Positions 40,190-42,719 of a stretch of DNA of 64,000 nt are shown in pieces; the first letter of the stretch is position 1; every line of letters begins with the position of its first letter. The notes under the pieces are model-generated. The model was not told the DNA's origin and did no database searches. It was given only the letters and a program-made list of their open reading frames with translations. Source of the stretch: Lutimonas halocynthiae. GTDB taxonomy: Bacteria > Bacteroidota > Bacteroidia > Flavobacteriales > Flavobacteriaceae. The stretch spans positions 558,001 through 622,000 of the forward strand of contig NZ_JAUFQO010000016.1 in NCBI RefSeq assembly GCF_030409835.1. Reading direction: 5' to 3'. The position numbers and the translations under genes were made by a program.

Positions 40190-41749
40190 TTATTTTGCTA
40201 CATTCACAACCCTTGTTTCACGAATCACAGTAACCCTTACCTGACCTGGGTAAGTCATGTCATTCTGAATTTTTTGGGTAATATTGAATGACAACTCAGC
40301 AGCCTTGGTATCATCTACTTTATCACTTTCAACAATTACACGAAGTTCTCTACCAGCTTGAATAGCATAAGCTTTTTGAACGCCGTTAAATGAAAATGCC
40401 ACATCCTCGAGCTCCTTTAGTCTCTGGATATAAGAATCAACAACCTGTCTTCTTGCCCCTGGTCTTGCACCTGATATTGCATCACAAACCTGGATGATAG
40501 GCGCGTATAATGATTTCATTTCAACTTCATCATGGTGCGCTCCAATCGCGTTACAAACATCAGCCTTCTCGTTGTACTTTTCAGCCCACTGCATTCCTAA
40601 TATAGCATGTGGTAACTCTGTATCCGTATCCGGAACTTTTCCTATATCATGAAGCAATCCTGCTCTTTTTGCAATTTTTGGATTTAGGCCCAATTCAGAA
40701 GCCATTACTGCACAAAGATTAGCAACTTCTCTAGAATGTTGTAGAAGGTTTTGACCATAAGAAGATCTGTACTTCATTCTACCAACAGTCTTGATTAACT
40801 CAGGATGTAATCCATGTATACCAAGATCAATAACAGTTCGCTTACCAACTTCTATAATCTCTTCATTGATTTCTTTACTCGTTTTTGCTACAATCTCCTC
40901 TATCCTTGCCGGGTGAATTCTTCCATCCGTAACCAACTTATGCAAAGATAAACGTGCAATTTCTCTCCTCACCGGATCAAAACAAGATAATATAATAGCT
41001 TCAGGTGTATCATCAACAATAATCTCAACCCCGGTTGTAGATTCGATAGCTCTAATATTTCGACCTTCTCTTCCAATAATACGTCCTTTAACATCGTCAT
41101 TCTCAAGATTGAATACTGAGACACAATTGTCAATCGTTTGTTCAACACCTATACGCTGTATGGTATTTAAAACGATCTTCTTAGCTTCCTGTTGTGCACC
41201 CATTTTGGCTTCTTCCAAGGTGCTCTGCATAAACGACATGGCATCACTTTTAGCTTCCTCCTTTAAAGTTTCTACCAATTCCTTTTTAGCCTCTGTAGCT
41301 GACATACCTGAAAGTACTTCAAGCTGTTCAACTTGTCTTTTATGTAGTTTATCAATTTCAGACTTCTTTTTCTCAATGTGCTCCAGTCTGTTGCCTAGTT
41401 GTTTATTCTTATCTTCTAAGGATGCGTTTATTTTTTTATTTTTATCTAATTCTTGTGAAACTTTCGACTCTTTATCTCTGACTCTCTTCTCTGTTTCATT
41501 AATTTTTTTATCTCTTGAAATGATTACTTTTTCATGCTCAGATTTCAATTCTATAAACTTTTCTTTCGCCTGTAAAATTTTATCTTTCTTAATTCCATCT
41601 GCTTCTATTTTTGCTTCTTTCAATATAGTGGCAGATTGCTCTCGAACATTCTTAATTGTTGATGAAGCTTTCTTTTTCTCTAAAACTTTGGCAATAAAAT
41701 ATCCCAATATTAGGGCTACAATTGCTATACTTATTGTTGTTGCTATCAT
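40190..41749 (-). CDS. rny: Ribonuclease Y
   Basis: Membrane-anchored endoribonuclease that initiates mRNA decay. 519 residues from ATG 41749 ([21 protein letters not shown], a single N-terminal helix). The in-frame ATG at 41830 would add 27 residues and lies inside the 6S RNA candidate, so it is rejected. Seen: long Lys/Glu-rich coiled coil (about 25-190), KH domain with [15 protein letters not shown] near 218, HD domain with HSREVA and [10 protein letters not shown] (about 350-380), and the C-terminal conserved domain. The leader is very close to the 6S candidate's U-run (11 bases). Confidence 0.96.
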
Positions 41750-41760
41750 AATGTATATAT

Positions 41761-41942
41761 AAAAAAAGCCTACATCGGCTACGGTTTTGTAAACTCCAAT
41801 TAACAAGTTTAGGACTAACTTAAAGGTCAAGTATCCAATTTTAAAGTGATAAAATCACTTACTTAGGCACGCTTTCACTCTAAAAACTCATCCTTTTTAA
41901 ATTGATAGTGTTGAGTTTAATAAACAAATAACTAATGTAGGC
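41761..41942 (-). ncRNA. ssrS: Candidate 6S RNA (ssrS), rod-shaped RNA between zapA and rny
   Basis: Read on the minus strand, the 5' arm GCCTACAT (41935-41942) pairs perfectly with ATGTAGGC (41768-41775), which is followed by seven T (41761-41767), a terminator-like 3' end. Inside it a second long-range stem, TAAACTC/GAGTTTA (41913-41919 with 41790-41796), is extended by TTTG/CAAA. At the centre sits a 7-bp hairpin (41844-41850 with 41854-41860, loop AAA), within about 3 bases of the midpoint. This closed rod of about 182 nt with an AT-rich interior fits 6S RNA, which binds the RNA polymerase holoenzyme. It lies between zapA and rny; zapA-6S linkage is known in Gammaproteobacteria. No covariance search was run. 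Confidence 0.72.
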
Positions 41943-41965
41943 AGTAAATTGTTTTTTTAAAGAAC

Positions 41966-42259
41966 TTATGCAAGATGCGAATCTAACAATTGATTCAATT
42001 CTAATAACTTGCTTTCGATTTGTCTCGAATCTTGACTTTCATTGACGTTTTTAACTTCCTTCTGCGATGCAAATTGCAAAGCACACATGGCTAAAACGTC
42101 TTGTTTATCTCTTACTTCATAATTCTGTTCAAATTGTTTCACCATTTCATTAATCTGCTTCACAGCCTTCCGAATACCTTCTTCCTCTCTCTCGTCTCTA
42201 ATGGTAAGCGGATAAACTCTATCTGCTATGGTTACTTTTATCTTCAGATTATTACTCAT
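41966..42259 (-). CDS. zapA: Cell division protein ZapA
   Basis: A 97-residue FtsZ-associated protein that bundles Z-ring filaments. Seen: N-terminal beta-hairpin (LKIKVTIADRVYPLTI), R/E-rich EREEEGIRKAVKQINEMVKQFEQNYEV helix (about 23-50), ALQFAS motif near 66-71 (KQDVLAMCALQFASQKEV), and a C-terminal coiled coil. The start is ATG. It follows the small coiled-coil gene by 8 bases and precedes the 6S RNA candidate, as zapA does in many bacteria. Confidence 0.9.
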   Translation of the reverse strand: MSNNLKIKVTIADRVYPLTIRDEREEEGIRKAVKQINEMVKQFEQNYEVRDKQDVLAMCALQFASQKEVKNVNESQDSRQIESKLLELNQLLDSHLA

Positions 42260-42267
42260 TTTATTTT

Positions 42268-42558
42268 CTAGTCACTTAATTGAACAATACATTTATCAAT
42301 TTCTCTGATCAAAGTATTTATTTTAAGCTTTGTTGCATGTTTGTCTTCTTTGCTGCCTACGATGGTGTTTGCAACTCGTAATGAATCATATTTTTTTTCT
42401 AATGAATCAATAACTTCCTGTTGCTTACTCAATTGTTGCTGAAGATTATTTTTTTGCTGCAATAATTTTAAATTCTCTTGTTGCAACATAGTATACTGAC
42501 CCAATATTCTTGAAAGCTTTGCTTCCAGATTGCTCACTATATCAAATAATTTATTCAT
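42268..42558 (-). CDS. Small coiled-coil protein upstream of zapA (ZapB-like position)
   Basis: A 96-residue, almost wholly helical protein with heptad patterns and a Gln-rich middle (LLQQKNNLQQQLSKQQEVIDSLE). The N-terminus is FDIVSNLEAKLSRILGQY, and the C-terminus reads TLIREIDKCIVQLSD. By size, coiled coil and adjacency to zapA (8 bases) it could be a division factor analogous to ZapB, but sequence alone does not prove homology. It starts with ATG, divergent from the M23 peptidase gene. Confidence 0.7.
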   Translation of the reverse strand: MNKLFDIVSNLEAKLSRILGQYTMLQQENLKLLQQKNNLQQQLSKQQEVIDSLEKKYDSLRVANTIVGSKEDKHATKLKINTLIREIDKCIVQLSD

Positions 42559-42719
42559 TAACCCAAAGAATCAAACAATTGCAACAAATTTAACATAGTT
42601 GGTCTTATAAAACAACTATTTTACAATAAATCCATAAAAAGTTAGACAAATTATTGAATCATAAACATTTAAAATTTTCATTTTTTTGTATCACCTCTTA
42701 TTATTATTTTAGCCCAATT

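Follow-up and report, generated by a model that had tools for sequence, protein, structure and literature searches.

Introduction

6S RNA is a regulatory RNA that is thought to block RNA polymerase, and to our knowledge it has been little studied in the Bacteroidota. The setting of its gene is described for beta- and gammaproteobacteria, in the part of the source drawn on here, as zapB-zapA-ssrS (PMC7641849). Two Rfam families are relevant here: 6S-Flavo (RF01685), for which Weinberg et al. 2010 (PMC2864571) is the source, cited here in part, and Bacteroidales-1 (RF01693), which Rfam describes as "6S-Bacteroidales RNA suggested." Passages of two further papers report a 6S transcript in Flavobacterium psychrophilum (PMC9723704) and 6S RNA together with product RNAs in Bacteroides thetaiotaomicron (PMC7366714).

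The DNA analyzed here, referred to as the window, is a stretch of 64,000 nucleotides from Lutimonas halocynthiae (assembly GCF_030409835.1, contig NZ_JAUFQO010000016.1, positions 558,001 to 622,000). The RNA that it encodes between zapA and rny is itself already known; its genomic context may be new.

Results

A 6S RNA in the zapA-rny gap

The first-pass annotation had read the short, AT-rich gap between zapA and rny as a 6S RNA, and comparative sequence analysis bore this out: the minus strand from 41761 to 41945 is confirmed as a 6S RNA of the Bacteroidota type (Rfam 6S-Flavo). The features of the locus are as follows.

41761 to 41945, minus strand: 6S RNA (6S-Flavo type), closing stem to T-run (RF01685 match and full-length covariation in 59 loci)
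41935 to 41942, minus strand: 5' arm of the closing stem, partner 41768 to 41775 (changes on both sides in 9 of 11 pairs of the closing helix)
41768 to 41775, minus strand: 3' arm of the closing stem (sequence inspection and comparative structure)
41913 to 41919, minus strand: 5' arm of the inner 7-bp stem, TAAACTC/GAGTTTA (covariation analysis)
41790 to 41796, minus strand: 3' arm of the inner 7-bp stem (covariation analysis)
41901 to 41912, minus strand: 5' strand of a large internal loop, presumed central, open-complex-like bubble (comparative structure)
41797 to 41808, minus strand: 3' strand of the presumed central bubble (comparative structure)
41761 to 41767, minus strand: run of seven T past the closing stem, presumed termination site (sequence inspection)
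41955 to 41965, minus strand: boxA-like element GTTCTTTAAAA between the zapA stop and the 6S RNA (core conserved in relatives)
41966 to 42259, minus strand: zapA, 97 amino acids (PF05164, E = 2.2e-17), stop codon at 41966 to 41968
42268 to 42558, minus strand: first gene of the presumed operon, 96 amino acids ("zapB-like" from position only; no Pfam family above its cut-off)
42585 to 42592, minus strand: TAAATTTG, sigma-A -7 element (TAnnTTTG) ahead of the first gene (TAnnTTTG search)
40190 to 41749, minus strand: rny (RNase Y), the gene after the 6S RNA (PF12072, E = 7.8e-33, plus HD and KH domains)

The search with Rfam 6S models that the annotation had proposed gave, in a permissive run over 41500 to 42200, an RF01685 match of 79.8 bits (E = 1.1e-13) at 41791 to 41916 of the minus strand, which spans model positions 1 to 108 of 108 with no end missing; the other five matches listed all had E values above 1, and the whole genome held this single RF01685 match at E 0.001. 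The score falls under the curated cut-off of 85 bits, which is a reporting threshold and not a property of the RNA, and at Rfam's own cut-offs the 64-kb window gave nothing. Among 60 genomes, comprising that of the window and those of 59 relatives, 41 had RF01685 matches, 20 of them above the cut-off, which was passed by 5 of the 17 matching genomes of the same genus and by all 15 matching genomes of other genera in the family; the orthologues that pass it sit at the same place between zapA and rny. Across the order, 124 of 296 genomes matched (27 above the cut-off), and neither the 14 control genomes nor the phage records that were searched gave any match. Membership in the two other families is ruled out, since RF00013 does not match in the window at E values up to 10 and RF01693 matches neither the window nor its genome.

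Structure and covariation

The architecture on which the annotation had relied was found in place, namely, a closing stem of 8 perfect base pairs followed by seven T, an inner 7-bp stem, and a 7-bp hairpin near the middle. The hairpin exists as claimed, although by eye it is a variable apical loop, similar among close relatives but changed or missing in others. No dinucleotide shuffle of 200 folded as well as the interval from 41761 to 41945 (z = -3.86), and the stem-to-stem rod alone gave a z of -3.91 against dinucleotide shuffles; the closing and 7-bp stems are both kept in the single-sequence minimum-energy fold, the inner arm of which is unlike the comparative structure.

That comparative structure, obtained with RNAalifold from an alignment of 59 Flavobacteriaceae loci, consists of 34 pairs, and it answers the call in the annotation for a search for covariation in relatives. 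In this alignment, 98.0% of cells are paired, against a shuffle mean of 85.6%, and 23 of the 34 pairs change on both sides, against a shuffle mean of 14.2 and a level reached in none of 500 shuffles, figures that are not probabilities because the shuffles ignore kinship. Sliding the 3' strand by one to three columns, which does keep kinship, lowered pairing to 29 to 48%, but this control favors a structure that, like ours, comes from the very alignment being tested. The closing helix changes on both sides in 9 of its 11 pairs, and therefore the part of the RNA that lies outside Rfam's 108-position model is real. The inner 7-bp stem is paired in 100% of cells, with changes on both sides in two of its seven pairs and four pairs invariant. 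Conserved long-range helices flank a large internal loop, as is expected of an RF01685 member, and the bubble region is unpaired between helices 2 and 3 of the comparative structure. The comparison thus reveals a covarying closed rod of about 175 to 185 nt with a large internal loop. Two of the outcomes that the annotation had named as refuting its reading, the lack of any 6S model match and of covariation in relatives, did not occur.

A full-length candidate was present in all 59 loci of the family (L001 to L059). The extraction pattern required an ACTGCC-like edge, a CTCAAC core, and a T-run, and no locus failed it; a stricter first pattern had fit 6 of the 59, and the looser one was used for all. 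A T-run of at least four follows the stem in 59 of 59 loci, as the search pattern demanded. A standard terminator scan returned no terminator-like site (0.3 expected from shuffles), as is to be expected because the loop of such a terminator would be the whole RNA.

Short, AT-rich gaps might be thought prone to fold by chance, and to this explanation we give next to no credence: none of the 200 shuffles folded as well, double changes occur in 23 pairs across 59 loci, and the RF01685 match and the covariation together rule it out. A plain mRNA leader was likewise rejected on the RF01685 match, the shuffle folding test, and the covariation.

On the 3' side of the bubble, the sequence is TAAACTTG (41804 to 41811, minus strand), with TAAAC(T/C)TG in many relatives by eye. 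It is one or two letters away from the promoter element TAnnTTTG, which is possibly promoter mimicry.

Gene order within and beyond the Flavobacteriales

Of two sets of Flavobacteriaceae loci, 58 of 59 in the first and 77 of 78 in the second have zapA directly upstream in the same orientation, and rny lies downstream of the 6S RNA in 57 of 59 and 78 of 78, all four exceptions being at contig ends; a homologue of the first gene in this orientation is found in 58 and 77 loci of the two sets, respectively, the other two loci being cut by contig ends. The 6S pattern fit 78 of 80 loci in the second set, or 77 if 60 nt of upstream sequence was also required. The order zapA-6S-rny recurred in all 20 distant Flavobacteriales loci chosen from 74 RF01685 hits outside the family. 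In a phylum sample of 238 genomes, 236 contained zapA and 30 matched RF01685; in 29 of these 30, all Flavobacteriales, the RNA match lay at most 100 nt from the zapA match, and in the 30th, from another order, it was on a different contig from zapA and is probably due to chance.

We also inspected what follows zapA in 40 genomes from other orders, hand-picked across families with four families represented twice, and by eye 25 of them have a 6S-like RNA there. At an E value of 0.01, Rfam supports three of the 25 (L157, which exceeds the cut-off of RF00013, and L148 and L166, which fall short of theirs) and gives no match in the other 22. A covariance model, R1, was built from the 11 deep gap RNAs that a simple motif filter trimmed well; it recovered 13 of 13 held-out deep stretches with E values of at most 7e-8, matched none of the 15 stretches judged to be empty, and missed L136, which had been counted as 6S solely because a closing stem was visible by eye and which is the sole case (again by eye) among 11 stretches examined from the same class outside the order. 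R1 also matches L117 (E = 1.7e-6) and L131 (E = 1e-4), distant Flavobacteriales loci that match RF01685, and the deep set is therefore linked to the 6S-Flavo set. R1 did not match the window, L001, L116, L120, L121, or E. coli ssrS, and the link from RF00013 to the window is indirect, running through R1, which finds L157 (a zapA-rny gap above the RF00013 cut-off) as well as L117 and L131.

Because an rny hit follows in 21 of the 25 deep 6S-like loci, the order zapA-6S-rny looks old in the phylum, as judged from these sequences. The parallel with the Gammaproteobacteria that the annotation had drawn from the position next to zapA also held, in that zapA-6S recurs through the phylum and E. coli has zapA-ssrS-fau, with ssrS 41 nt past zapA. 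In three loci with no rny hit (L150, L171, and L146), the frame after zapA or the 6S RNA starts, by eye, like a YmdB-type metallophosphoesterase.

In the window, rny starts with the ATG at 41749, and the T-run ends 11 nt ahead of it; a longer rny from a TTG at 41830, as listed by the ORF finder, is not credible because that start falls within the 6S RNA. Among named isolates, the closest relatives of this rny are those of Aureibaculum, Tenacibaculum, and Lutibacter. So short a distance, together with the 21 deep loci in which rny follows, would fit a structured rny leader, acting in cis as a regulator or attenuator and not as a free RNA. We regard this as very improbable, since the window and its relatives match a 6S model at this very place, four of the 25 deep loci had no rny hit in the downstream stretch fetched, and strong 6S RNAs of the Bacteroidales-1 type (L319 to L323) had neither a zapA nor an rny hit alongside in five of five cases.

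Promoter elements and the presumed operon

According to the part of PMC9723704 used here, housekeeping promoters in this group carry TAnnTTTG as their -7 element. Over 127 loci with duplicate sequences excluded, it occurred in the 150 nt upstream of the 6S RNA in 2 and in the 150 nt before the first operon gene in all 127 (about 18 expected by base shuffling), at -40 to -21 in 126 of them; the picture was the same before de-duplication. The same 150-nt search found it before RNase P in 15 of 16 genomes and before tmRNA in 10 of 16. A scan for the sigma-70 consensus gave 5 promoter-like sites against 4.9 expected from shuffles. The near absence of the element at the 6S RNA and its presence before every first gene suggest that the 6S RNA is probably the tail of a transcript that runs through the first gene and zapA, and one transcript through first gene, zapA, and 6S RNA would be the simplest reading; a promoter of another sigma factor adjoining the 6S RNA is possible. 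In 28 of 137 loci (not de-duplicated), TAnnTTTG was also present inside the 6S RNA or up to 60 nt past its end, and rny may therefore have a separate promoter in some loci.

A boxA-like element before the 6S RNA

The boxA of rRNA operons is an antitermination element. A core of GTTC[ATG]T[ATG], a pattern picked after the sequences had been seen, occurs in the 45 nt before the 6S RNA in 120 of 126 distinct family loci, with 2.1 expected by shuffling, and in 52 of 882 control windows further upstream; where found, the box lies within a narrow range, 19 to 30 nt before the ACTGCC 5' edge of the 6S RNA. A similar box lies 83 to 193 nt upstream of 16S in all 13 genomes examined, which exclude the window's own for want of an assembled 16S there; of these boxes, which were picked by eye, 12 have GTTC and one has GATC, and the common form is GTTCATTGACATA-like. 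Before mature tmRNA, a boxA-like box stands at 14 to 18 nt in 8 of 16 genomes (L193 to L198, L204, and L206), including the window's own genome (L197), and some of these boxes take the rRNA-like form GTTCTTTACAATAT. By eye, the tmRNA box lies downstream of TAnnTTTG in L194, L195, and L197 and is therefore inside the transcript.

Elsewhere, none of 16 RNase P genes had the pattern in the 120 nt ahead of it, and it was rare before tRNAs: 30 of 36 were examined, with five hits, and three of these hits resemble the end of the preceding tRNA. The genome of the window also has an exact GTTCTTTAAAA 20 nt before a tRNA-Ser/tRNA-Pro pair (L069; motif at 1501, tRNA-Ser at 1521). A second boxA-like match past the stop of the first gene and before zapA was seen in 6 of 58 scored loci (L036, inspected at about 1142, and by score L010, L038, L043, L048, and L054).

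Among the deep stretches, the core lay within 45 nt of the zapA stop in 8 of 25 with a 6S-like RNA versus 0 of 15 without one (P = 0.014 in a one-sided Fisher test that takes no account of kinship). Genome-wide, the exact 11-mer shows no enrichment, with 26 occurrences versus 20 for the reversed control, and the identification as boxA therefore rests on position; at the rRNA-leader site, the 11-mer occurs within two mismatches in 3 of 13 genomes. A weight matrix built from the 13 rRNA leaders scored at P ≤ 0.05 in 49 of 58 family loci, 4 of 20 distant loci of the order, and 1 of 13 scorable loci of the phylum; it is too narrow for distant loci, and the plain core pattern was therefore used. 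By eye, the box is present in 11 of the 20 distant loci of the order, and it was absent from all seven loci examined in one family (f5). Like boxA in rRNA leaders, the conserved core thus keeps a fixed position ahead of a stable RNA that is not translated; the stricter matrix fails in most distant loci. The genome encodes NusB. With moderate confidence, based on these sequence comparisons, we take the box between the zapA stop and the 6S RNA to be boxA. Judged by eye, the box could pair with AAAGAAC inside the 6S RNA in certain deep loci, L157 among them; no such partner was seen by eye in the Flavobacteriaceae alignment.

E. coli ssrS, 41 nt after zapA, has its own promoters. The 6S RNA of the window might likewise be made from an alternative-sigma promoter of its own at the end of zapA, in which case GTTCTTTAAAA would be a part of that promoter or a processing site and not boxA; the narrow spacing between box and 6S RNA is in keeping with this, as are the several promoter motifs given for F. 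psychrophilum in the part of PMC9723704 cited here. The box recurs, however, in rRNA leaders, 83 to 193 nt before 16S, and before tmRNA in half of the genomes, apparently inside the transcript in three of them, and the housekeeping element is near the 6S RNA in just 2 of 127 distinct loci, so that we consider a separate promoter of this kind unlikely. The preferred reading, a boxA within an operon transcript, fits an order that is conserved across the loci compared: promoter element, small gene, zapA, boxA-like box, 6S RNA, T-run, and rny.

Discussion

The best explanation of the whole, which we hold to be probable, is that the single 6S-Flavo gene found in this genome forms the tail of the zapA operon and specifies a boxA-protected, sigma-A-binding 6S RNA. 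RNA polymerase would start at the promoter before the first gene, read zapA, and enter the untranslated 6S part, where NusB/S10 and related factors would assemble on the boxA-like RNA, as they do on rRNA, and would shield the untranslated stretch from Rho or help it to fold. Transcription would mostly end at the closing stem and T-run, with nucleases trimming the precursor to mature 6S RNA, and read-through may feed rny. By analogy with what is established for other 6S RNAs, the loop of the mature RNA, which resembles an open promoter, would be the site that binds the sigma-A holoenzyme, and synthesis of product RNA would bring about release; the holoenzyme binding and stationary-phase role that the first-pass annotation foresaw would follow by the same analogy.

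A wider reading, which we put forward tentatively, is that in most Flavobacteriales, and perhaps ancestrally in the phylum, the 6S RNA has no promoter of its own and is the antiterminated 3' tail of the mRNA from the zapA operon, with a boxA of the rRNA type to protect it and its own closing stem to end it, that the off-operon Bacteroidales-1 type gained a promoter and lost the box, and that the zapA-6S link predates the split between Bacteroidota and Proteobacteria. Our literature search found no publication that joins boxA and NusB with 6S RNA. If the boxA reading is true, a global inhibitor of RNA polymerase would be under the same elongation control as rRNA, and growth rate, division genes, and polymerase sequestration would be tied together; if the joint reading of an operon tail is true, 6S output would depend on a division-gene promoter and on the NusB/S10 machinery that drives rRNA synthesis. 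The zapA-6S neighborhood would be older than the beta- and gammaproteobacteria for which the cited part of PMC7641849 describes it. In practical terms, the full boundaries, the covarying closing stem, and the operon model can guide probe placement and the choice of mutants.

Like rRNA boxA, and as seen in 16S leaders of the same order, the element identified here carries the GTTC-N-T core ahead of a stable, untranslated RNA; it differs in standing after the stop of a coding gene, inside a presumed mRNA-6S transcript, and NusB binding is putative.

The Bacteroidales-1 family is related in that, of 10 distant Flavobacteriales 6S loci searched with RF01693, 6 match over the same stretch as the 6S RNA, in each case below its cut-off of 60. 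Its five strong members differ, lying away from zapA with TAnnTTTG directly upstream (22 to 28 nt, 5 of 5) and no box (0 of 5); by eye, the gene ahead resembles rplT in two loci and dnaJ in one. Eight other RF01693 matches include two zapA loci of Flavobacteriales, L327 without the box and L328 with it. Three weak hits away from zapA are box-like, L325 and L330 by the pattern and L329 by eye, so that box and zapA linkage are not strictly coupled and the rule is weakened; the box is absent at L324, L326, and L331.

Proteobacterial 6S RNA is likewise a closed rod with a central bubble, and in E. coli, as in beta- and gammaproteobacteria according to PMC7641849, it also lies directly downstream of zapA. 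The window's RNA differs from it in having no RF00013 match and in being followed by rny and not by fau or EVE, and the GTTC core is absent from the 41-nt zapA-ssrS spacer of E. coli. The closest known system is 6S-Flavo, from which the window's RNA differs by a score just under the curated cut-off and with which it shares a full-length model match, the phylum, the core sequence, and the inner structure; to the 108 positions of that Rfam model, the present analysis adds the covarying closing stem, the T-run, and the upstream box, all of which the model omits.
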